Source of the DNA: Microbacterium schleiferi
GTDB taxonomy: Bacteria > Actinomycetota > Actinomycetes > Actinomycetales > Microbacteriaceae
NCBI RefSeq assembly: GCF_015565955.1
Contig: NZ_CP064760.1
Location: 2,666,001-2,730,000 of the forward strand
DNA length: 64,000 nt
Direction of reading: 5' to 3'
Made by a program: the position numbers and the translations under genes. The notes under the pieces were generated by a model. The model was not told the origin of the DNA. It did no database searches and worked only from the letters and a program-made list of their open reading frames with translations. Below, in pieces: positions 1,221 to 53,477 of the stretch (position 1 is the stretch's first letter; each line of letters opens with the position of its first letter).

Positions 1221-2696
1221 CTAGGCAGGGTCGACTACATCGCCCCAGGACGTAACGATCGTCCAGCGGCGCGCACGGTCCCCACGATGCGCCGCGGGCC
1301 GGACGTCGATGCGTTCGATGAGCGGCCGGACGATGAGGTTGCGCTGATCGGGCGTTGCCGCGGGCCACACGGCGGCGAGATTGGCGGGAAGCGACTGCGG
1401 GGCTGCTGCCCGCACAGGGTTCGAGGTTGCGGCGCGACGTCGGCGCTCGGCGTCCTCGCGCTCGGCGTCGATCGCGGCGGCCGCCTGGCGATATGCCGTG
1501 TCGGTGATCGTGCCGTCGGCGAGGCGGAGGCTGAGGGTTAGCATCCGCTCCTCTGCGCGTTTGATCTGCTGCTCGGCGCGCCTCGCGGTCATGTCTGCCG
1601 CGGCGACTCTCTTGTCTGAGCGCTGCTGTGCCGCGAGGCGTGGGGCGAGGTCGGTGGCGAGGGCCAGGACCCACGCCTCGACTTCGGCCTCTACCCGGTG
1701 CGCGCGAACGCTGACGATGCGATGGTTGGTGGTCGTGCTCCCGCGTGAGCACAGGTAGACCCGCCCGTCTTTCGCCGCGTTGTGGTGCATCGGCCCGCCG
1801 CAGTCGACGCAACGCAGCAGTCCAGAGAGGAACGATGCCCCGGGCTGTACTCGTACGCGGCGGCGCTCTTCGCGTGCCGCGAGGTAGGCCTCCCACGTCG
1901 CACGGTCGATGACGGGCTCGTGTGCGCCCTGACGGAACTCGCGATCCCACACTGGCGCGTGCGGGCCGGACTTGACGAGAAGCCCTGCCCCGAACCCGGC
2001 GTCGAGGATCCGCAACACGTCCTGATAACGCCACGGGCCGCCCGTACGCCCGTGCGGGACGCCCAGGTCGTTCAGGTGGCGCGTGAGGTGCCCGCTCCCC
2101 TGCCCGCCGAGATATCGGCGGTAGAGGTCTGCGAGGAGGGGGCCGGTTTCAGGGTCCGGCAAGTACTGGCCGCCCACCTCTCTGTAGCCGAACCGCGGGC
2201 CGCCCGTGCTCGGGAGACCGCGTGCGACGCGGAACTCTCGAGCCTCCTTCCACTGCTCGCCGATGCGCTCGGACTCGAAGGCTGCGAGTTCCGTCATGAC
2301 TCCGCGGGCAAATCGACCGGCGGCGGTCTGATCGTTGGGCTCGGTGGCTGACTCGATACGGCCACCAGCGAGGTCCGCGCGGTCAGCGGCGAGCGCCCAG
2401 TCGCGGCGCGAGCGAGAGAGCCGGGACCAGCGCCAGAGAACGATCACGTCGGCGCGGTCGGTTTCGAGCGCGCCCATTGCTGCCTGAACGCCAGCGCGCG
2501 CCCATGTCCGTCCGCTGATGCCCGGGTCGCGCTCGATCGAAACGATCTCGTAGCCCTGCCGATCACAGTAGGCGCGGCAGGCCTGTTCCTGAACGTCGAG
2601 GCTGATCGACTCCTCGCGATAGGTCGACTGCCGAAGATACACGACGGCCCGCGCGCGCTCGGGCCGCGGCCGGAGATGCGCGAGCAGCGCACTCAC
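1221..2696 (-). CDS. Serine integrase (large serine recombinase)
   Basis: Catalyses integration between attP and attB in yajQ. The N-terminal resolvase domain starts AVVYLRQS, where the Ser is the expected nucleophile, followed by SLDVQEQ and the catalytic-domain segment VIVLWRWSRLSRS. A recombinase domain follows (GGPRFGYR...), then a zinc-ribbon segment (LLRCVDCGG...YLCSRG) and a coiled coil with many Arg and Glu. I chose the GTG at 2694-2696 because it overlaps the stop of the upstream gene as GTGA, although the frame is open further upstream. This gives 491 residues, normal for the family. It lies 50 bases from attL. Confidence 0.93.
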   Translation of the reverse strand: MSALLAHLRPRPERARAVVYLRQSTYREESISLDVQEQACRAYCDRQGYEIVSIERDPGISGRTWARAGVQAAMGALETDRADVIVLWRWSRLSRSRRDWALAADRADLAGGRIESATEPNDQTAAGRFARGVMTELAAFESERIGEQWKEAREFRVARGLPSTGGPRFGYREVGGQYLPDPETGPLLADLYRRYLGGQGSGHLTRHLNDLGVPHGRTGGPWRYQDVLRILDAGFGAGLLVKSGPHAPVWDREFRQGAHEPVIDRATWEAYLAAREERRRVRVQPGASFLSGLLRCVDCGGPMHHNAAKDGRVYLCSRGSTTTNHRIVSVRAHRVEAEVEAWVLALATDLAPRLAAQQRSDKRVAAADMTARRAEQQIKRAEERMLTLSLRLADGTITDTAYRQAAAAIDAEREDAERRRRAATSNPVRAAAPQSLPANLAAVWPAATPDQRNLIVRPLIERIDVRPAAHRGDRARRWTIVTSWGDVVDPA

Positions 2697-3112
2697 GCTG
2701 CTGCTCGCTCTGCGTAAATGCGGGAGGTGACACTCGCGAGGAACGCGAGGGGAACTTGAAGCGCGCGAGCCGCCAAGGGGAGGGGTGCTCCCGCGCCGAC
2801 AAGCGCGAGGAGGTCGCGCTGCGGAACGAGTCGGGATGCCACCCATTCGAACAACTCACCGTCGCTCATATCTGGGTGGAGCGCGGTTGCGAGAGTGCAC
2901 GTAACCACGAAGCGTTCGTCCGCTGGCGGCAGGTCGCGCTGGACGAGTATCTCGCGGGTCTCGGGCCGGTAGTGGGTCACGTAGGTGTCAGCGTGGCTGA
3001 CCACGATGCCGGCATCCGCGGCGACGCGGTGTGGATCGAAGTTTCGGCCGTCCATTTGGGTAAGTCCCCCCTGTGCTATGGCGGGCGACGGCGACATCTG
3101 TCCGGCCTCCAT
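2693..3112 (-). CDS. ImmA/IrrE-like protein without HEXXH motif
   Basis: Probable partner of the phage repressor. In ImmA-type proteases the protein is a metallopeptidase that cleaves the repressor. Here the pattern of a degenerate ImmA fold is visible (RVAADAGIVVSHAD, then YRPETREILVQRDL, then ADERFVVTCTLATALHP), but the place of HEXXH is occupied by TCTLATALH, so metal-dependent catalysis is unlikely. The ATG at 3110-3112 is preceded by a strong GGGGGGAG site with 5 bases spacing. 139 residues. It sits between repressor and integrase, co-directional with both. The family call is inference from context and residual similarity. Confidence 0.6.
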   Translation of the reverse strand: MEAGQMSPSPAIAQGGLTQMDGRNFDPHRVAADAGIVVSHADTYVTHYRPETREILVQRDLPPADERFVVTCTLATALHPDMSDGELFEWVASRLVPQRDLLALVGAGAPLPLAARALQVPLAFLASVTSRIYAERAAA

Positions 3113-13207: not shown

Positions 13208-13735
13208 ATGCGCAAAGTCACGCTCAACGGAGGTCCGCTCGCTGGCAAGCGATACCTCATCCCCGACGACATGCGGAAGCTCAGCCGCAACGCCCACCCG
13301 GACGGCCACTACGTCATCGACGGAGATACCGGCACCTGGACGATCTCTGACGAAGCGCTCGGCGACGCCAGCGCCGCAATCGCTGGCCCCGCCGAGCCCG
13401 TCGGCCTGGCGCGCCTGGCCGCGAAGGCCAGCACCGGCTACCGCGCGCTCATCGTCGCGCGCACCCGCAAGCGTGCTGTCGAGTTGTGGAACGCGGCGCT
13501 CCCGCACGTTACCGACGCGGCGCGGATCACCCGCTCCAACGGCAACGAGCGCGTGCGCTTCCCCAATGGTGGGCTGCTCGTTCCCGTCGGCCTGAACAGC
13601 AAGGGCGGCCGCGGCATGTCCGCCGACGTCCTGTACGTCGACCGCGACGTCGCCGATGAGGACCTGACCGACATCCTGCCCGCGCTCGCCGCATCCGAGC
13701 ACGGCTCGATCGTCCACCACGAGGGGGCCGAGTGA
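13208..13735 (+). CDS. Phage protein with terminase-ATPase-like C-terminal segment
   Basis: 175 residues. The N terminus (VTLNGGPLAGKRYLIPDD, DGHYVID) is a small beta domain frequent in actinophages. The rest (GYRALIVARTRKRAVELW, RITRSNGNERVRFPNGGLLV, GGRGMSADVLYVDRDVADED) parallels the region of the large terminase encoded at 17290 (RTNGKKALRL, RGGRGLSGDLVLLDELRE), including the hydrophobic strand ending in Asp. It has no Walker A lysine motif and no catalytic Glu (VDRD instead of LDE), so it would not hydrolyse ATP. Role unknown. Confidence 0.55.
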   Translation: MRKVTLNGGPLAGKRYLIPDDMRKLSRNAHPDGHYVIDGDTGTWTISDEALGDASAAIAGPAEPVGLARLAAKASTGYRALIVARTRKRAVELWNAALPHVTDAARITRSNGNERVRFPNGGLLVPVGLNSKGGRGMSADVLYVDRDVADEDLTDILPALAASEHGSIVHHEGAE

Positions 13736-14434: not shown

Positions 14435-16749
14435 ATGTCTCTCGCAGTGTCGACGGTCCCTCTCGCGGACCTCACGCCCTACTACAAGAACCCTCGACGC
14501 GGGAACGTCGAGGCGATAGCCACGTCGTTGCAGGTGCGAGGGCAGTACAAGCCGCTCGTCGTGAACGCCGGAACATACACCGGACGAGCGATGGAAATCC
14601 TCGCTGGGAACCACACCTACCTCGCGGCGCGCACCCTCTCGTGGGAGGCGATCGACGTGGTGACGGTCGACGTCCCGGACGAGGAGGCGGCGCAGATCGT
14701 CCTCGCTGATAACCGCCTCGCGGACCTCGGCGACTACGACGACGACCTGCTGCGCGACGTGCTCGGCGACGCGGGTGACCTCACCGGCACCGGGTACTCA
14801 GAGGAGGACCTGGAGCGGATGTTCGCAGGCCCGGTGGACGCCGCTCCGAGGACGAGTCTCGCCTCAGAGTTCGGTACGCCTCCGCTGACCGTCCTGTCGG
14901 CCCGGGGAGGCGAATGGCAGGAGCGGAAGAAGGCGTGGATGGATGCGGGGCTGCGCTCCGAGGAGGGGCGCGAGGAGGCGCTGGTCTACGACTCGCCGCA
15001 GGCCCGATTCATCAACTGGTACAACGTGAAGAACGCGGCGGAGGCGGCAGCCGGTCGATCGCTGTCCGACGACGAAATCCTGAAGACCTGCAAGGAGCAG
15101 TTGCGCGATATCGGCGGGGGCACATCGGTATTCGACCCGGCGCTCGCGGAGGTGCTGCTCGCCTGGTACTCGGCCCCGGCTCTCGCGTCCTCGACCCGTG
15201 GGCGGGTGGCGCTGTTCGCGGCGTCGTGTCGGCGGCGATGGGGCGGGAGTACTTCGGGATCGAGTTGCGGGCGGAACAGATCGAGGCGAACGAGGCGATG
15301 ATGCCGGTTGTGCGTGACGCGGTGGCGGCGCAGCTCGCGGACGGTGACGGCTCGGCGACGTGGGTCGCTGGCCCGGTCGCTGAGGCGCTCGGAGCCCTGC
15401 CGGACGAGTCGTTCGATATCGCGTTCAGCGAGCCTCCGGCCTACCCGACGGACGAGTGGCATCTGACTCCCGTGGATCGCGTCGGCGCGCTGTACGTGAA
15501 GCGCGATGACACCTTCGTCGTCGGCGAGTCGCGCGGCGGCAAGGTCCGCTCCTGCCTCGATATCGCGATGCGCGCGAAGGAGGCGGGCGCTCGCGTACTC
15601 GTCACCGCTGGATCGCGGCAATCGCCGCAGGTCGCGATCGTCGCCGACGTCGCGGCTGCTCTCGGCCTTGAGGCGGAGGCGCATGTGCCGGAGGGCGCGT
15701 TCACCCCCGAGCTGTCGGCTGCGCAGGCGGCCGGGGCGCGGATCGTGCAACACAAGGCCGGACACAACAACGTCATCGTCGCACGCGCCCGCGAGGCGGC
15801 CGCGGAACGCGACGACGCCGTCGAGGTGCCGTTCGGCATGGAAACGCCCGTAGCGGTCGACCTGACGTCGCGACAGGTGGAGAACCTGCCTGCCGACGTC
15901 GAACGGATCGTGATCCCGGTCGGCTCGGGCATGTCGCTCGCGGGCGTGCTGTGGGGACTCCGGCGCTCGGGACGCGATGTGCCGGTCCTCGGCGTGATGG
16001 TCGGCGCGGACCCGGAGCAACGTCTCGACAAGTACGCGCCCGCCGACTGGCGGGAAATGGTGGAGCTGGTGCCGTCCGGCCTCGACTACCACGACCACGC
16101 GCCGGAGACGAAGCTCGGGCCGCTGTCGCTGGACCCGATCTACGAAGCTAAGACGCTGCCGTTCCTCCGCGACGGCGACCTGCTGTGGGTCGTCGGCATC
16201 CGTGGGTCCGCGGTGCGCTCGTCGGCGGAGTGGATCGACCCGACGTGGATCGAGGGTGACAGCACGATCGCGCTGGCCGACGTCGAGGGCGAGTCGTTCG
16301 ATATGGCGCTCGGTTGTCCTCCGTATTACGACCTCGAGTCGTACTCGGACGACCCGCGCGACCTGTCGAATCTGTCACCGGCCGAGTTCGATGCCGCTAT
16401 GGCGCGAACGGTCGCGCAGGTGGGGCGCGTGCTCCGCGACGACTCGTTCGCCGTGTTCGTTGTCGGCTCCGTCCGTGACAAGAAGGGCCACATTCTCGAT
16501 ATGCGGCGCTGCATGTCGCAGGCGTGCGAGGCGGCCGGCATGGCGCTCGTGAACGACGCCGTCCTGCTCACGCCGGTCGGCTCCGCTGCGATGCGCGCGG
16601 CCCGCGGATTCCGCGGCTCCCGCACGCTCGCCCGCGTCCACCAGGAGGTGCTCGTGTACGTCAAGGGCTCCCGCAAGGCCGCGGCCGACCGGCTCGGCCC
16701 TGTGTCGTTCGCCGCGGTCCGCGAGGTCGAGAAGGACGGCGAGGAATGA
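14435..16749 (+). pseudogene. ParB - DNA methyltransferase - PLP-enzyme fusion, frameshifted as read
   Basis: One gene of about 771 residues if a C is added to CCCC at 15174-15177. As read, two frames overlap there. Domains: ParB/Srx-like nuclease fold (about 1-125: VPLADLTPYYKNPRRGN, ILAGNHTYLAARTL). Methyltransferase N part with motif I RVLDPWAGG (about 250) and a degenerate motif IV SEPPAY (about 331). A PLP-dependent fold like ACC deaminase/cysteine desulfhydrase (about 340-590: LYVKRDDTFV, GGKVR with the expected PLP lysine, SRQSPQVAIVADVAAALGL, VGSGMSLAG). Then the true methyltransferase motif IV GCPPYYDLESYSDD (about 628) and its C part to 771. Probably modifies phage DNA bases. The PLP role is inference. 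Confidence 0.75.
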
Positions 16750-17360
16750 CGCCGGAGCAGGTGCAGCAGGCGCTCGAAGGCCGCCGACGCGGCCTGTCGT
16801 TCGCGTCGATCGCTGCGGCGGTGAAGGCCGAAGAGTCGGAGGTGCGCGAGGCGGTCGCTGAGGCGCTCGCCGAGGCACCGGCCGACATCGACCTGGAGCA
16901 GGAGCGCGCGCTCGCGTTCTCTCGGCTGGACCGGATGCTGTCAGGCGTGTGGCCCCGGGCTGTGAAAGGCGAGCCCGAGGCGATCGACCGGGTGCTGCGC
17001 CTGGAGGACGCCCGCGCACGCCTCCTGGGCGAGCCGGAGCGGGTGCGCGATGGCATCACGTCGGCCGTTGAGGAGACGCTCGCGGCCATCGAGACGGAGC
17101 CCGCCGATGCGGCGCTGATCGCGACGGTGCGCCAGGCGGCCCGACAGATTGACCACGCGGTCGCTTTCGGGACGTCTTTCGAGGCAACGAAGGCGATGTA
17201 CCTGCTCCCCCACCTCTGGAACGGCCTGGAGAAGCTGGGCGCGACTCCGGCGGCGCGGGAAGAACTGAAGAAACGGGCGGAGGAGGCGAGTGGCGACGGC
17301 AACAACAAGCGCGCGACGCTCCACGCGCTCCGCACGGCCGCGAAGACGGCTCGGGCATGA
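16746..17360 (+). CDS. Terminase small subunit-like protein
   Basis: 204 residues. N-terminal helix-turn-helix (QVQQALEGRRRGLSFASIAAAVKAEESEV), then a long helical region (LEQERALAFSRLDRMLSG, DRVLRLEDARARLLGEPERV). DNA-recognition subunit that brings the packaging site to the motor. ATG overlaps the methyltransferase stop. Directly upstream of the large subunit. Confidence 0.75.
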   Translation: MTPEQVQQALEGRRRGLSFASIAAAVKAEESEVREAVAEALAEAPADIDLEQERALAFSRLDRMLSGVWPRAVKGEPEAIDRVLRLEDARARLLGEPERVRDGITSAVEETLAAIETEPADAALIATVRQAARQIDHAVAFGTSFEATKAMYLLPHLWNGLEKLGATPAAREELKKRAEEASGDGNNKRATLHALRTAAKTARA

Positions 17361-18885
17361 GAAAGCTCGCGTATTCACGCCGCCCAAGCGGCGGCTGACG
17401 CGCCGCACGTCGCACGGGTATGCGGCGATCGAGTTCGCGGAAGTCGTGCTCTCGATCGTCCTGCTGCCGTGGCAGAAGTGGCTGCTGATACATGCGCTCG
17501 AACTGAACGAGGACGGGACCTACCGCTTCAAGACGGTGGTGCTCCTTGTCGCGCGACAGAACGGCAAGTCCACGCTGATGCAGGTGCTGACGCTATGGCG
17601 CATGTTCGTGGATGGTGCACCGCTCGTGATCGGGACGGCGCAGTCGCTCGACATCGCGGAGGAGCAGTGGCGCGGCGCGGTCGAACTAGCCGAGTCGGTG
17701 CCGGAGCTGGCCGAGTACATCGAGAGCGTGGACCGAACCAACGGGAAGAAGGCGCTGCGCCTGACGACCGGGGAGCGCTACAAGGTGGCGGCGGCATCCC
17801 GCCGCGGCGGCCGTGGCCTGTCCGGCGACCTCGTGCTGCTGGACGAGCTGCGCGAGCACCAGAACTGGCTCGCGTGGTCGGCGGTCACGAAGACAACGAT
17901 GGCGCGGCCGCAGTCGCAGGTGTGGGCGGCGTCGAACGCTGGAGACCTGTCGTCCGTAGTGCTGCGGCATCTCCGGTCGCTGGCCCATCGCGCGCTCGGG
18001 TATCCCGACGGCACCGATGGGATGGTGGACCTGCCGCCGCTGGGCGAGGACGCCGGAGAGGAATCGCTGGGCCTCTTCGAGTGGTCGGCGGCCCCCGGCC
18101 GCAGCGTGTGGGATCGCGATGGGTGGGCTGAGGCGAACCCGTCGCTCGGCCACACCGTCGATGAGCGCTCGATCGCCGCGGCGGCCTCCACGGACCCGGA
18201 GTGGGTATTCCGCACGGAGGTGATGTGCCAGTTCGTGAACATGGCCGGGCTCGGGCCGTTCCCCGCCGGGTCGTGGAGCGCGGCGCTCGACACGAAGGAG
18301 GACCGCGCTGCTCGCGGCGTGCGTCGAGACGAGTCGCGTCCCGCCTGCTACGGCGTCGACATGAGTCACGGGCGCGACATGGTGTATGTCGCTATCGCAT
18401 TCTGGGACACGGAGGGGCGGCCGCGCGTCGAAATCGCCGCGCAGCGCTCGGGACCCGACTGGGTGCTCCCCTGGCTGACGTCCTCGAAGCGGCGAATCCC
18501 GCCGACGCACATCGCCATGCAGCGCCGCGGCGCTCCCGTGTCCTCGCTGTGGGACTCGTTTCTGGAGGCCGGGCTCGACCCGACTGCCTGGGAAGGGCCG
18601 AACCTCGCGGGCTGGCACGGGACGTTCTACGACCTAATCCGCTCTGGGGTTGCCGACGACGGCGTGGTGAAGCTGACACACGGCGGTCAGCCCGTGCTCG
18701 ATATCGCGGCCACAACAGCGGACATTCGCCCGCTCGGCGACGGGTGGGTGATTGACCGCAAGGGCTCGCCTGCCGACGCCTCGCCGCTCATGGCCGCAAT
18801 CGCGGCTGTCGGGCTGCTGATGACGAACCCGGGGCCGACATTCGTGTCGGCCTACGAGCAAGGGGGACTGACGGTCCTCGACTAA
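17290..18885 (+). CDS. Terminase large subunit (packaging ATPase and nuclease)
   Basis: Motor that translocates DNA into the prohead. ATPase: Walker A VARQNGKST (about residue 95), Walker B LVLLDE, coupling segment SNAGD. Nuclease: YGVDMSHGRDMVYVAIAFW with catalytic Asp residues. 531 residues from the GTG at 17290, which has GGAGGAGG upstream but overlaps the small subunit by 71 bases. An ATG at 17357 that overlaps the small subunit stop is one base out of frame. An added base around 17378 would connect it, so the N terminus is uncertain. Confidence 0.93.
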   Translation: MATATTSARRSTRSARPRRRLGHEKARVFTPPKRRLTRRTSHGYAAIEFAEVVLSIVLLPWQKWLLIHALELNEDGTYRFKTVVLLVARQNGKSTLMQVLTLWRMFVDGAPLVIGTAQSLDIAEEQWRGAVELAESVPELAEYIESVDRTNGKKALRLTTGERYKVAAASRRGGRGLSGDLVLLDELREHQNWLAWSAVTKTTMARPQSQVWAASNAGDLSSVVLRHLRSLAHRALGYPDGTDGMVDLPPLGEDAGEESLGLFEWSAAPGRSVWDRDGWAEANPSLGHTVDERSIAAAASTDPEWVFRTEVMCQFVNMAGLGPFPAGSWSAALDTKEDRAARGVRRDESRPACYGVDMSHGRDMVYVAIAFWDTEGRPRVEIAAQRSGPDWVLPWLTSSKRRIPPTHIAMQRRGAPVSSLWDSFLEAGLDPTAWEGPNLAGWHGTFYDLIRSGVADDGVVKLTHGGQPVLDIAATTADIRPLGDGWVIDRKGSPADASPLMAAIAAVGLLMTNPGPTFVSAYEQGGLTVLD

Positions 18886-42837: not shown

Positions 42838-45800
42838 TCAGGCGGTCGCCGAGTCGCGGGGTTCGGCTGATTCGTCGATCTGACGCAGACGCTCGATCAG
42901 GTCGGTGACTTGCGTGTCCGTGAACAGCGCATCCGGACCCTCCGGAGCGATTCCTGTGAACGGGTCTTCGTAGAGACGGCGCGGGTCGAGATATCCGGCG
43001 ATCGTCAGTTGCTCGACGATGAGGTCGACGAACACGTGCTGGCGATGCGTGAACCCGGATGCGGAGACGAAGTCGCCGAGCGCAGCTTCGGCAGCAGAGC
43101 GGTCGAGGCCGACGATCGAGCGGATGAGGCGGCCCAGTCCACGGGCCTCGTCGGCTTGCGAGCGCAGCTGTTCGGAATCCACTCCCCCGGCGCTGACAAG
43201 GATCGCCTCGAGTTCGGCGAGATCGACGGACGTGAGTTCGCGTCCCGTACGCAGCTTTCGCAGCGCGAGGTTGTCGCGATGCTCGTCGAGGAAGCCCAGG
43301 ATCTTCTCGCGGAATGCGCGGCGGTTCAGGCCCGGCATGACGCGCGCGATGTCGACGTCACGCCGTTGAACGATCGTGTCGATGAAGTCCGTGTAGATCG
43401 GGCGTTGGCCTTCGGCATCGATCAAGCGCACGAGGGTCCGAAGGTGAGTCCGCACGATCTCGAGTTGCGACAGGGTGGCAGCCGTCCACCACTCCGGTTC
43501 ACTGATTGCCGCGATGAGGCTCGCCTGTGCATCCACCGCCGGAATCCCGCGCCGGTCGCCGAGACTGCGCGCGAGGTCTATCGCGCGGCTCGCAATCGTC
43601 GTCGGTACGGGGTGCCCGGCAGCGACGGCCACTTGCGCGTCGAGCAGCAGCAGATCGAACCGTCTTGCTGCTTCGTCGGTGTCGGTCTCGGATGCCGTCG
43701 GCAGCCCCGCGAGCTCGGATGCGGCGTCCACGTCACTGACAGAGAAGTGATCCCAGGCCGTGACCGACGCGAAGCGGTCCACCGTGCGGAGGCGCCTGCG
43801 CACCAGGAAGTTCTCGCGGTTCATGCCGCCCACGGCGGTGTGTAGGCGCGAAGCGAGCGTCGCGCGAAGGGACTCCGCATCCGTGTCATCTCTCCCCGCG
43901 AGCAAGGCGAGCAGTTGCAAGCGCACGAGGAACGAGCGCTCGGAGACGGATGCCGTTCGGCGACCGGCGACCTCGGGGATGTCGGCGTTGAAGTACTCGA
44001 TGTTGCCGCACACGTCGAAGATGATGAAGTCGGTCTTCGGCTGCCCAGGGCCGTACAGGTCGGGGCGGAGGCGAGTGCCGCGTCCGACCATCTGCCAATA
44101 CTTGGTTTGCGAGTGGACGGGCTTGAAGAAGACGAGGTTGACCACGTCGGGGATGTCGATTCCGGTGTCGAGCATGTCGACCGAGATCGCGATGTCGGGC
44201 TTCGTCCCCGGCGTCGAGAACCTGTCGAGGAGGTCCTGGACGTATGGGCCGGAGGCGTGCGTGATGATCGCTGCCGTCTGGCCACGATGCTCGGGGAAGT
44301 TGGCGTCGAAGCGTTCTTGAATGAACTCGGCGTGCTTCTGGTTCTTCGCGAAGACGATCGTCTTGCCGAGCACATCGCCACCCTGAACGTAGCGCCCTTC
44401 GTCGAAGAGGATCTCGAGGACTTTGTCGACGGTGTCTTCGTTGAACAACCAGCGGTTCATCACGGCAGCGTCCACCTCATCGGGGATATCGCCGTCTTGC
44501 CATTCGAGTGCGTCCCACTGCTCACGTTCCTCGGCACTGAGGTCGGCGTACCGGATCCCGCGAGTCATGAATCCGAGATCGATGACGCGAGCTTTCGGGG
44601 GACGAGGAAGCCACCCGCGATCGCGTCGTCGAGCTCGTAGGCGTCGGTGGGTACGCCGTCGTCGAGTTCAAAGAGCCGATAGGTGTTGTGGTCGATGTCG
44701 GCTCGGGGTGTCGCGGTGAGACCGACGACAAGTGCGTCGAAGTACTCGAAGATCTCGCCATACCGGTTGTAGATCGACCGGTGTGCCTCGTCGACCACGA
44801 TGAGATCGAAGTAGCCGGGGCCGAAGCGGCGCAGATCGTCGTCTCCCGCATCGATGAGGTTCATCACCGTCGCATACGTAGAGACGAAGACGCGGCCCTC
44901 GCTGTCGCGGTCGGTGAGCAGGTTCACCGGGGCACTGTCGGGGAGGTGCGCCTTGAACGCACCGACGGCCTGGTTCACAAGGGCAGTGCGGTCGGCGAGA
45001 AAGAGCACGCGTTTGACCCAGTTCGCGCGCTGGAGCACGTCGACGAGAGCGATCACCGTTCGCGTCTTGCCCGTACCGGTGGCCATGACGAGCAGCGCCC
45101 GGCGGCGCTTGTTCTCAAAGGTGTCGCTCACAGCACGAATGGCGCGCAGTTGGTACGACCGCTCAACGATCCCTCGGTCAACCGCGATGGTGTCAAGTGG
45201 TTTGAGCGTCGTCCGCCGCTGGACGGCCAGCGTCAGTTCGTCTTTCGTGAGGAATCCTGCGGCCTTGCGCGGAGGATAGCGCCGGTCGTCCCAGTACCAG
45301 GTGTCGTACCCGTTCGTGTAGAAGATGAGGGGGCGCTGGCCGGTGTCGCGTTCGAGCGCATCTGCGTACAGGCGGGCTTGCTCACGCCCCTCCTTCGCGC
45401 TCTTCGAGGTGCGTTTCGCTTCGACGACCGCAAGCGGCTTGCCGTCATCGCCCCACAGCACGTAGTCGACTTTGCCTGCGCCCGAGGGGCTCGGGATACC
45501 TGTGACCGGCCATTCCCGGTCGCGGGCTTCATCCAGGGGCCATCCTGCTTCGTGGAGCAGCAGATCGATGAGCTGCTCGCGGGTCTGGGCCTCGGTCGCG
45601 TCGGTCGGGTCGGCGATGTTGTGGGCAATGTTGCGTTCGGAGTTCTCGGCCTTGAGCCTCGCGATTTCTGCGCGCAACTCCTCAATGTGGGCCTGCGCCG
45701 TCGCGCCGAGGGCCGCAGCTGCGCTCAGTTGCGCACGAGCGTCATCGAACTCGGCTTGGATCTTGAGGAGTTCGCTGCGTGCTTGTCGCACGACGGCCTC

Positions 45801-46226
45801 CGGTGCCGGCGGAACGCGGTCGAAGGTGAACGGCTCGGGTTGCGGTGCTGCCGGGTCGCCGTAGCAGTGCTGGAGCCAGAGGCACACCCGGTGAAGCTGT
45901 TCGAGTGATCCACGCGCCCGCGCGAGGGGCATTTCGTCATCCTTGTGGACGGCGTCATTGCCGACGAGACGGATGATCCTGAGGCTGCCGCAGATCGATT
46001 CGCCGACGGTGTCCCGGAACGACCTCTGCGCGGTCAGGTTGGCGAAGGTGTCGTCGTAGGGGCGATCGAGGTTCTCTGCGGAGTAGACCCAGGCAGTGAA
46101 GAGCTCGGCAGCGCGTCGAGCGTAGGTGGCGGAGGCTCTCGGGTCGGCCCGCAGATAGGCTTCGGCGCGCGCGGCAGCGTTGCCGACCTGCGGCCAGGCC
46201 TGCGCGACGAAGTCGAAGTTCCCCAC
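42838..46226 (-). pseudogene. hsdR: Type I restriction enzyme R subunit (HsdR), frameshifted as read
   Basis: About 1129 residues if one base is added to GGGGG at 44597-44601. As read it is two overlapping frames joined where GFLVP should continue PKARVIDLGF. Order: N-terminal DUF4145-like helical part, coiled coil, PD-(D/E)XK nuclease (VDYVLWGDDGKPLAVVEAKR), SF2 helicase (LVMATGTGKTRT, DLIVVDEAHR, GLTATPR), second RecA domain (TIVFAKNQKHAEFI-like VFAKNQKHAEFIQERF, QMVGRGTRLR) and the EcoEI-type C terminus. DNA translocase and cutter of the HsdRMS complex. Separated from hsdS by 3.8 kb. Confidence 0.88.
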
Positions 46227-51113: not shown

Positions 51114-52004
51114 GCGAGCATCTCCCGGAGGCGCTTGAGGCCGTCCTGAATCTCGACCTCAAGCGCATCGAGTTCGTCGAGGATCTCCACCGGTGACCGG
51201 TGCTCGACCTCCTCGATCTCGATCTCCTTATAGCGGTTGAGGCTCAGGTCGTAGCCGTTGTCGACGATCTCTTGCTTCGGTACGAAGAAGCTCTGGTCGG
51301 TGCGCACTCGCGCGGCCTCGGCATCCAGGTTCTGCCACCGGGCCAGCACGTCGGGAAGGTCGTTCGCCTCGATGGGGGTGCGCTTGTCGTCGAGGGTCAT
51401 GCCGTCGGCGCGCACGTCGTAGAACCACACCCGGTCGGTGCCGCCCGACGAGGTCTTCGTGAACAGCAGGATGGCGGTCGAGACCCCGTGTAGGGCTTGA
51501 AGGTGCCCGACGGGAGCTTGATGACGGCATCCAGTTTGTGGTCATCGATCAGCAGCTTGCGCACCGCCTTGTGCGCGTTGCTCGACCCGAACAGCACCCC
51601 TCGGGCACGATGACCGCGGCGCGCCCACCGTTGCGCAGCATCCGGATCATGAGCACGAGGAAGAGCAGTTCGGTCTTGCGGGTCTTGACGAGCTTCTGCA
51701 GATCCTTCGAGACGGTCTCTTGATCGAGCGACCCGGCAAACGGCGGGTTGGCGAGCACGAGCGTGTAGCGGTCATCGCCCGGATGCCCCTCAGAGAGCGC
51801 GTCGGCACGCTCGATCGTCGGGTTCTCGACGCCGTGCAGCAGCATGTTCATGCTCGCGATGCGGGCCATGGCGGCATCGGAGTCGTAGCCGGTGAACATC
51901 GGCCCGTTGAAGTGGGCGCGACTGCCGGCATCCGCCCACAGCTCGGGGTGATGCTTGCGCAGGTACTCCTCGGCAGCCACGAGGAACCCCGCGGTTCCGA
52001 CGGC
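51110..52004 (-). pseudogene. hsdM: Type I restriction methyltransferase (HsdM), 5' end lost to insertion, two frameshifts as read
   Basis: Only the part after SAM motif I remains: [34 protein letters not shown] (motif IV NPPF), [19 protein letters not shown], then [20 protein letters not shown]. Two breaks would be repaired by one extra base each in CCCC at 51597-51600 and 51484-51487. Upstream of the AVGTAGF codons the sequence changes abruptly near 52004 into the recombinase element. The first 150 or so residues are nowhere in this window. This loss is real even if the frameshifts are sequence errors. Confidence 0.85.
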
Positions 52005-52061
52005 AGTTATGTGTACGTTCGGTCAGTGTCTCAACGACCCACCCGACTGCACCCCCGGAGC

Positions 52062-53477
52062 ATGATGTATCTGCGTTTCGTCGACCACCAACTCGCCCCC
52101 TCAACCGACTTCGACGCGCGCGCCAGCGACATCTACTCGCGCACCCGTTCGCTCCCCGAGGGGATGCCGATCCTTCTTGACGATCGGTGGCGGCCGGTTG
52201 AGCCGTGGTTGACGTACTTCCGGATCGTCGCAGCGTCGACAGACCCGGCGACGCTGCGCGCGTACGCATACGACGCCAGGCGGTTTGCGTCGTTCCTCGC
52301 CACGCGACAGACCGACGTGATCCATGCGTCGAGCGACGACATCGTCGCGTTCCGCGAATGGCGGCTGAGCGGCTCCGAGCGCCCGGTGTCGCCGGCGACG
52401 TGGCGACGCGACGTGGTCGTGATACGCGGGATCTATCAGCTGCTCACTCAGACCGGGCAGATCCAGCGCGAACCGTGGATCACCATCGGAAGGTCGTCGC
52501 CGCTCCGGATGCGTTGGAGGAGCGAGCCCGACATTCGGCCGCTGACGCAGGCGCAGTGGCGCACGTTCCTCGACGTCGGTCTCGGCGGACGAACCGCCGC
52601 GGGCGATCTGGACGAGAGTTGGCGGGGCACAACGAGCCTGCGTTCAAAGGCGGGCGCGCAGCTGGCCGTGACGACGGGGATGCGCCTCGGTGAGTTCTCC
52701 ACACTGCTCGACGCTGAAGTCCCGCCGCCGACGGGCACCGGCATCTCCGTCTTGCTCGAGGCGTGCGCGAAGTACCAGAAGCGTCGACGCGTCCACGTCC
52801 CCCTCACGACGCTTCGGGCGGTCGATCTCTACCGGCAGACGGAGCGCCGAGCGGTCGTCCGCGCGTCAGCTGCCTCCCTCTGGCGACGCCGCTCCGAGCT
52901 GTTCGTCGTCGACGAGATCGACGTGTCGGCAGGCATCCTGCGAGGCCGGGTGAATGGGCGGCGATCGAGATGGCGGCTGCACCAGCTGCCTCCGCACCTG
53001 CGACGAATTGCCGTCATCGAGCGGGACCACGGGATGGAGGCGCTGGGGCTGTTCGTCGGTCGAGGCGGTTTGCCGATCAGCCGCAGGCAATGGCACGCGA
53101 CGTTCGAGGCTGCAAGCGGGCGTGCTCTGAGGCTCGCTCAGGACGAGATGGGCGGTCGCCGTGCACGGATCACTCCGCACGATCTGCGCCACACTTTCGC
53201 TGTCGTGCTCCTGAAATCGCTGACCGATGTGGCGCTGGCCCGCGAGGCGGAGCGACGGGCAGGCAACGTGGGACCAGCCACGATCTCCGAGCACATCGCC
53301 ATCAACCCGCGACTTACAGTGCAGCGGCTGCTGGGGCACTCGAACCCGGCGACGACCATGGTCTACCTGCGCTACATCGAGGACACCGATGCGCTCATCC
53401 AGGACGTATTCGAGAGCTGGAGCGACGAGGGCATGACATACGCGGACGCAGTCCTCGCTGATCGGAACGTCGCGTGA
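52062..53477 (+). CDS. Tyrosine recombinase 1 of a trio
   Basis: 471 residues. SAM-like N-terminal core-binding part (TLRAYAYDARRFASFLATRQ). Catalytic residues visible: Arg in TTGMRLGEFSTLL, HDLRHTFAVVLL (H-x-x-R), LLGHSNPATTMVYLRYIE with the His and the Tyr nucleophile. GGAG site before ATG 52062. The frame stays open upstream through hsdM but the homology begins here. Fully competent by motif. Confidence 0.88.
   Translation: MMYLRFVDHQLAPSTDFDARASDIYSRTRSLPEGMPILLDDRWRPVEPWLTYFRIVAASTDPATLRAYAYDARRFASFLATRQTDVIHASSDDIVAFREWRLSGSERPVSPATWRRDVVVIRGIYQLLTQTGQIQREPWITIGRSSPLRMRWRSEPDIRPLTQAQWRTFLDVGLGGRTAAGDLDESWRGTTSLRSKAGAQLAVTTGMRLGEFSTLLDAEVPPPTGTGISVLLEACAKYQKRRRVHVPLTTLRAVDLYRQTERRAVVRASAASLWRRRSELFVVDEIDVSAGILRGRVNGRRSRWRLHQLPPHLRRIAVIERDHGMEALGLFVGRGGLPISRRQWHATFEAASGRALRLAQDEMGGRRARITPHDLRHTFAVVLLKSLTDVALAREAERRAGNVGPATISEHIAINPRLTVQRLLGHSNPATTMVYLRYIEDTDALIQDVFESWSDEGMTYADAVLADRNVA

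Follow-up and report, generated by a model that had tools for sequence, protein, structure and literature searches.

The 64,000-nucleotide stretch of Microbacterium schleiferi DNA analysed here (positions 2666001–2730000 of a single-contig 3.3 Mb genome; hereafter the window) carries a prophage, one gene of which, at 14435–16749 of the window, encodes a ParB-like domain and a DNA methyltransferase into which a pyridoxal phosphate (PLP)-dependent domain of the PALP type is inserted. The pairing of PALP with this methyltransferase, found in many phages and in several arrangements, hints at a form of phage DNA base decoration that has not yet been described. Our preferred reading, which in our judgement stands evenly balanced between right and wrong, is that the protein is a phage DNA base hypermodification enzyme, in which the methyltransferase prepares the base for tailoring by the PLP domain and no 5-hydroxymethyldeoxyuridine (5-hmdU) route is involved.

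The gene is read in two frames, the ParB part from 14435 and the remainder in the open reading frame (ORF) 14914–16749. Its parts are listed below, P0073 being a closely related intact protein from Microbacterium caowuchunii.

14435–15178, plus strand: ParB-like N-terminal domain with the linker that ends at the frame break (phrog_723, E=7.1e-47; PF02195, 25.8 bits, just below the cut-off of 26.3; 81.9% identity to P0073 residues 1–248).
15175–15178, plus strand: change of reading frame, from tblastn with intact P0073, whose residues 1–248 align with 14435–15178 and residues 248–340 with 15175–15453 in another frame.
15172–15351, plus strand: N-terminal half of the methyltransferase, with motif I LDPWAGG (15190–15210) and the GREYFGIEL strand (C-terminal part of PF01555, profile positions 181–218 of 221); the predicted structure has strands at model residues 5–8 and 26–31.
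15352–15444, plus strand: degenerate duplicate of the WxxG...ESFD...PP motif IV neighbourhood (SEPPAY), from alignment to the second copy.
15460–16203, plus strand: PLP fold-type II (PALP) domain (PF00291, E=5.8e-15; phrog_3650, E=5.5e-35).
15541–15543, plus strand: codon of the PLP lysine, within the PALP domain.
15622–15624, plus strand: second serine of SRQSPQ, within the PALP domain.
16237–16746, plus strand: C-terminal half of the methyltransferase, with the intact motif IV GCPPYY (phrog_12517, E=2.5e-67; phrog_498, E=6.6e-53; 88.9% identity to P0073 residues 354–524).

Matches to phrog_723, PF01555 and PF00291 confirm the original prediction of a ParB and DNA methyltransferase protein with a complete-looking PLP domain inserted. 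The N6/N4 amino-methyltransferase profile PF01555 scored 30.7 bits against a cut-off of 26.7, in two stretches and together with motif I, and the PALP domain lies between motifs I and IV. A fold-type II match had been anticipated for this middle region, and it was returned by PF00291 (55.8 bits against a gathering cut-off of 35), by phrog_3650 and by Foldseek, which led from the PALP domain to D-cysteine desulfhydrase (E=2.6e-13); both the fold and the Schiff-base lysine of this enzyme type are present. The lysine is also conserved in homologues, as had been supposed. In an alignment of 124 rows, made up of 120 listed relatives together with the window protein, Pam4, ZS04 and GD43A79, the lysine is found in all 120 rows that bear PALP, among which the window counts twice, and the SRxSPQ serine in 119 of them. 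Judged by median ratios of non-synonymous to synonymous substitution (dN/dS) of 0.08 and 0.10 over 42 non-independent pairs, PALP and the methyltransferase C-terminal part are under purifying selection in viral relatives.

The order of a beta-class enzyme, with motif IV before motif I, was not found in the methyltransferase of the window. Residues 86–133 align with CcrM 214–261 and residues 448–521 with 2zie 27–101; both matches are weak, and the same crossed order is seen in P0002 and P0068. Because the motif order is crossed with respect to CcrM and 2zie, we class the enzyme as a circular permutant. The matches obtained with VIA-align covered the PALP region only and have no bearing on the methyltransferase fold. 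The CPPY of the intact motif IV is present in all 85 loci compared and in 121 of 122 rows of the alignment, the other being CPPC.

The notion of duplicate motif IV neighbourhoods flanking the insertion was right in part. The two WxxG...ESFD...PP stretches are true duplicates, their 29-residue alignment scoring 64 against a maximum of 45 in 2000 shuffles, but the arrangement is not general to the family: the degenerate first copy occurs in 15 of the 124 aligned rows, with the window counted twice. It is mostly modelled at low confidence, segments 56–66 and 76–94 having a predicted local distance difference score (pLDDT) below 50. With a small clade and such models behind it, the duplication was rejected as the key to the fold. 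Three proteins without PALP, P0071–P0073, cluster with the window protein (tree support 0.998), within a wider clade of weak support (0.76), and the first motif IV copy is retained in P0071 and P0073, the two that were read. The simplest story is that loss or exchange of PALP left a motif IV vestige.

The link between PALP and the methyltransferase extends well beyond the window. Of 7996 candidates scored in a database search, 524 were relatives at E<=0.001, and PF00291 was found in 117 of the 120 relatives listed (the window's own protein included), a count that leans toward PALP because the query itself contains it. PALP is inserted in the methyltransferase in the named phages Pam4 and ZS04; in Vincenzo the ParB–methyltransferase and PALP are two overlapping genes, 1 and 2, and AlanGrant likewise has them as separate genes. 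On a methyltransferase tree of 201 sequences (188 after removal of duplicates), all forms occur together: PALP is inserted in 135, C-terminal in 4, N-terminal in 3, a separate gene of the locus in 13 and absent from 46. A second set was anchored on PALP, being the best 80 of 146 viral-contig relatives found with a PALP alignment. Here PALP was inserted in the methyltransferase in 42 loci, C-terminal in 4, N-terminal in 1 and fused but truncated in 3, while the methyltransferase (at least 40 bits) was on another ORF of the locus in 19, within 1.5 kb in 16 of these. Among 80 control loci found through the window's terminase, the methyltransferase (above 100 bits) was present in 3 and PALP in 1, and no further control locus matched at E<=0.001. 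All three MTase-bearing controls were among the 27 control loci of at least 16 kb. Fisher's test gave p=4e-29 against the 80 controls and 1.6e-12 against the 27, values which are guides only because the contigs are not independent. PALP is thus recurrently linked to this methyltransferase, in several arrangements. Among 297 genomes of the host's order, no full-length relative was found besides the window's own; three matched at E<=1e-20, two of them over the ParB part only.

Separate PALP genes stand beside the methyltransferase in L075, L086, L089, L091 and L092; those of L075 and L089, the two that were aligned, are of a second PALP subtype with GGTKAR and without SRxSPQ. A cysteine-cluster domain, weakly matching PF03692 or DUF3109, occupies the methyltransferase insertion site in L097 in place of a detected PALP. 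It occurs with PALP in the same protein in L038, L048, L159, L130, L138, L140, P0068 and P0116; in L059, L061 and L150 it has a gene of its own close to the methyltransferase, and it had no match in the window. The whole resembles a set of interchangeable modules built around one methyltransferase. In L049 (4866–5741) the PALP ORF runs on into a weakly amidoligase-like domain (phrog_2443, E=0.046), a tail without a Pfam match at E<=1. A search with the phrog_2443 profile matched 0 records, the controls included, and the tail is kept as a lead.

The PALP domain of the window shares its family with a PLP-type protein of Vi01, a phage with hypermodified thymidines. phrog_3650 matches Vi01_182 at E=2.5e-241 and Vincenzo gp2 at 2.7e-106, and in hhalign the PALP alignment A3 matched Vi01_182 at E=2.7e-14, the end motif included. 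Vi01 was the one phage examined further from a search with Vincenzo gp2 that gave 335 phage records, 158 of them from Salmonella phages. From the family match, Vi01_182 (noted as orf00226) is probably the published Ackermannviridae PLP enzyme (PP35 ORF169). It belongs to the same PHROG as the window PALP; unlike the latter it stands alone, in a phage with PF00303 and phrog_3271 matches. The conserved 5-hmdU transformation genes of Ackermannviridae comprise a PLP enzyme, a dUMP hydroxymethyltransferase, kinases and thymidine pyrophosphorylases (PMC6336734). The modified base 5-NeOmdU is given for Vi01 and CBA120 (PMC11721090), and a PLP-dependent enzyme is included in the M6-type cassette (PMC9476957). 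The PALP of MONT_41 (L006:3940–5876) in phage Montesquieu is homologous as well (hhalign E=1.2e-19); in contrast to the window gene, it has no methyltransferase fusion, the adjoining gene is annotated as an alpha-glutamyl/putrescinyl thymine pyrophosphorylase, and one annotated as a pyrimidine hydroxymethylase is close by.

The 5-hmdU families PF00303 and phrog_3271 were found in both controls, Vi01 and Montesquieu, and in none of 37 selected phage records, an absence that is not proof because most of the records are fragments. These records were hand-picked mainly for length, 16 from the 41 PALP-bearing loci and 23 from the PALP-anchored 80, two being shared; 33 have the ParB–methyltransferase with PALP, and four (L131, L137, L148 and L173) were classed as PALP-only. 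L131 has a ThyX-like gene, which is another kind of thymidylate synthase. Its PALP gene (L131:6585–8747), without the methyltransferase, directly follows the ThyX-like and NUDIX genes. In the window genome the sole PF00303 match lies outside the window and phrog_3271 had no match, and a PHROG scan of 30 window ORFs besides the gene itself matched no base-modification family.

We infer that the PLP domain acts on DNA and that the methyltransferase would act first. Placing the protein on DNA is probably the task of the ParB domain. The circularly permuted amino-methyltransferase module would bind S-adenosylmethionine (SAM) and a flipped-out base and make a handle on the base, and the fold-type II domain would then tailor the base adduct, like its relative listed in the Ackermannviridae 5-hmdU route. 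The hypermodification idea of the original prediction draws on the conserved lysine and serine, purifying selection, the recurrent methyltransferase linkage and the Ackermannviridae relative; the addition or removal of an amino group envisaged there is one of several possible chemistries. As to the nature of the group, a putative one-protein route independent of 5-hmdU, the boldest reading and one that we regard as very unlikely, would have the permuted methyltransferase move an amino-acid group of SAM (e.g. 3-amino-3-carboxypropyl) to the base, where the fused PLP domain would process it by decarboxylation or elimination on the DNA, with the cysteine-cluster domain as an alternative or additional tailoring part. 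Such a SAM-derived handle would explain why one protein suffices as a system.

Several observations weigh against hypermodification. Should the methyltransferase transfer no more than a methyl group, it would leave the PLP domain without a handle to work on, and conserved residues of the methyltransferase C-terminal part separating PALP-bearing from PALP-less loci were sought in the 85 loci and not found. This uniformity limits any specific scheme: the methyltransferase may make a handle in every case, with tailoring in some cases only, or the PLP domain may bring in a group of its own, or it may not act on DNA. Gain and loss of PALP are frequent on the tree, which would make it dispensable. 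On the collapsed tree there are at least 31 changes between presence and absence, compared with a mean of 38 and a minimum of 34 for 100 shuffles of the labels, and a turnover slightly below that of shuffled labels is as expected either for a part under arms-race turnover or for a dispensable one. Eleven of the 80 PALP-anchored loci were classed as having no such methyltransferase nearby; one of these, L161, has a match to ParB and a DNA methylase on the same ORF as PALP and was kept among the 11. Vi01_182 is annotated only as uncharacterised and scores 30.7 bits with PF00291, under the cut-off of 35, and the PALP profile is related also to enzymes acting on free amino acids. Finally, the window copy is frame-broken. 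The change at 15175–15178 may be a sequencing error or a true break; the same-lineage viral relatives L017 and L018 each read through in one open frame, of 532 and 530 codons respectively, and a further viral relative, L020, is likewise split over several frames, at a different place.

The kinship with enzymes of free amino acids leads to an alternative that we consider unlikely, namely that a free amino acid is the substrate of the PLP domain, which would be an auxiliary metabolic enzyme of the D-cysteine or 1-aminocyclopropane-1-carboxylate (ACC) deaminase type fused for joint expression only, with the methyltransferase making N4- or N6-methyl anti-restriction marks. D-cysteine desulfhydrase and ACC deaminase are of the same fold type and their lysine and serine regions align with those of the window PALP, yet the latter falls far under every curated equivalog cut-off, with D-cysteate sulfo-lyase best at 41.3 bits against 450, followed by D-cysteine desulfhydrase (32.2 against 429) and ACC deaminase (27.5 against 392). 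In print, MONT_41 is described as an auxiliary metabolic gene for an ACC deaminase (PMC9331655), but it adjoins the annotated thymine pyrophosphorylase, which suggests a role in DNA modification. ParB–methyltransferases without PALP are common, as this alternative would have it (44 of the 85 loci, a maximum, as some truncated loci and some with a weak PALP are among them). A metabolic enzyme would not be expected, however, at the N end, at the C end and inside of one DNA methyltransferase as well as in neighbouring genes.

A second alternative, quite unlikely in our view, is that the PLP domain does the installing: it would form aminoacrylate from free serine or cysteine, to which the base held by the methyltransferase adds (a beta-replacement, as in cysteine or tryptophan synthase), and the methyltransferase would mainly bind and flip the base, or methylate nearby. 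That PALP is a catalytically dead spacer or a selfish insertion is extremely improbable, and was rejected: PALP is often absent and the window gene is broken, but the lysine is invariant, the serine all but invariant and dN/dS low.

Among known systems, phage ParB–methyltransferase fusions (phrog_498), described as frequent in phages by a ParB-CTPase survey (PMC12704722), likewise join ParB to an N6_N4 methyltransferase; the window protein adds a PLP enzyme, and the main text of that survey is without the terms pyridoxal, PLP and PALP. The CmoX/CmoA/CmoY carboxymethylcytosine system resembles hypermodification as proposed here in that a transferase sets a handle which a second enzyme elaborates, often with ParB genes near, but CmoX was overlaid on the HhaI methyltransferase and has an SPPC motif (PMC12783734). 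A CmoX-like carboxymethyl system was rejected, the window family having CPPY instead of SPPC and CmoA (TIGR00740, a profile that matches in E. coli) being found in none of the 18 records searched, of which 16 belong to this family. A literature search covering mostly titles and the starts of abstracts, with subscription papers and supplements outside its scope, yielded no published description of a ParB–methyltransferase–PALP fusion, which does not show its absence from print; the main text of the Pam4 genome paper is without the words pyridoxal, PLP, methyltransferase and ParB.

The gene sits directly upstream of the terminase genes, in a prophage whose content in the window includes a serine integrase, recombination genes, terminase, head, tail and holin genes. 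Two of these mark the setting.

1221–2846, minus strand: serine integrase of the prophage (phrog_95, E=6.6e-93; PF00239 and PF07508).
17290–18885, plus strand: terminase large subunit, the phage packaging context (phrog_9, E=3.5e-84).

Ahead of the true terminase, a small ORF at 13208–13735 (plus strand) weakly matches terminase large subunit families. Further along, two adjoining ORFs at 42838–46226 (minus strand), with HSDR_N and ResIII and then Helicase_C and EcoEI_R_C domains, together resemble a type I restriction R subunit split in two. A tyrosine-type phage integrase at 51720–53477 (plus strand) suggests that the prophage is followed on its right by another mobile element.

In PMC6336734 and PMC9476957, the PLP enzymes that take part in phage DNA modification are those of thymidine routes through 5-hmdU. 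The present case links a relative of such an enzyme with a SAM-type DNA methyltransferase, and the two 5-hmdU families tested were not found beside it in the records checked. Named phages of actinobacteria, cyanobacteria and alphaproteobacteria have this link, as do many unnamed viral contigs, and intact copies of the gene in named phages such as Pam4, ZS04 and Vincenzo make the DNA-decoration reading open to test. If the PLP domain does act on DNA, these phages would reach amino-acid-like decorations of DNA by a second and independent path, and annotations of the family as cysteine synthase, ACC deaminase, nucleoside deaminase or methylase would be corrected.
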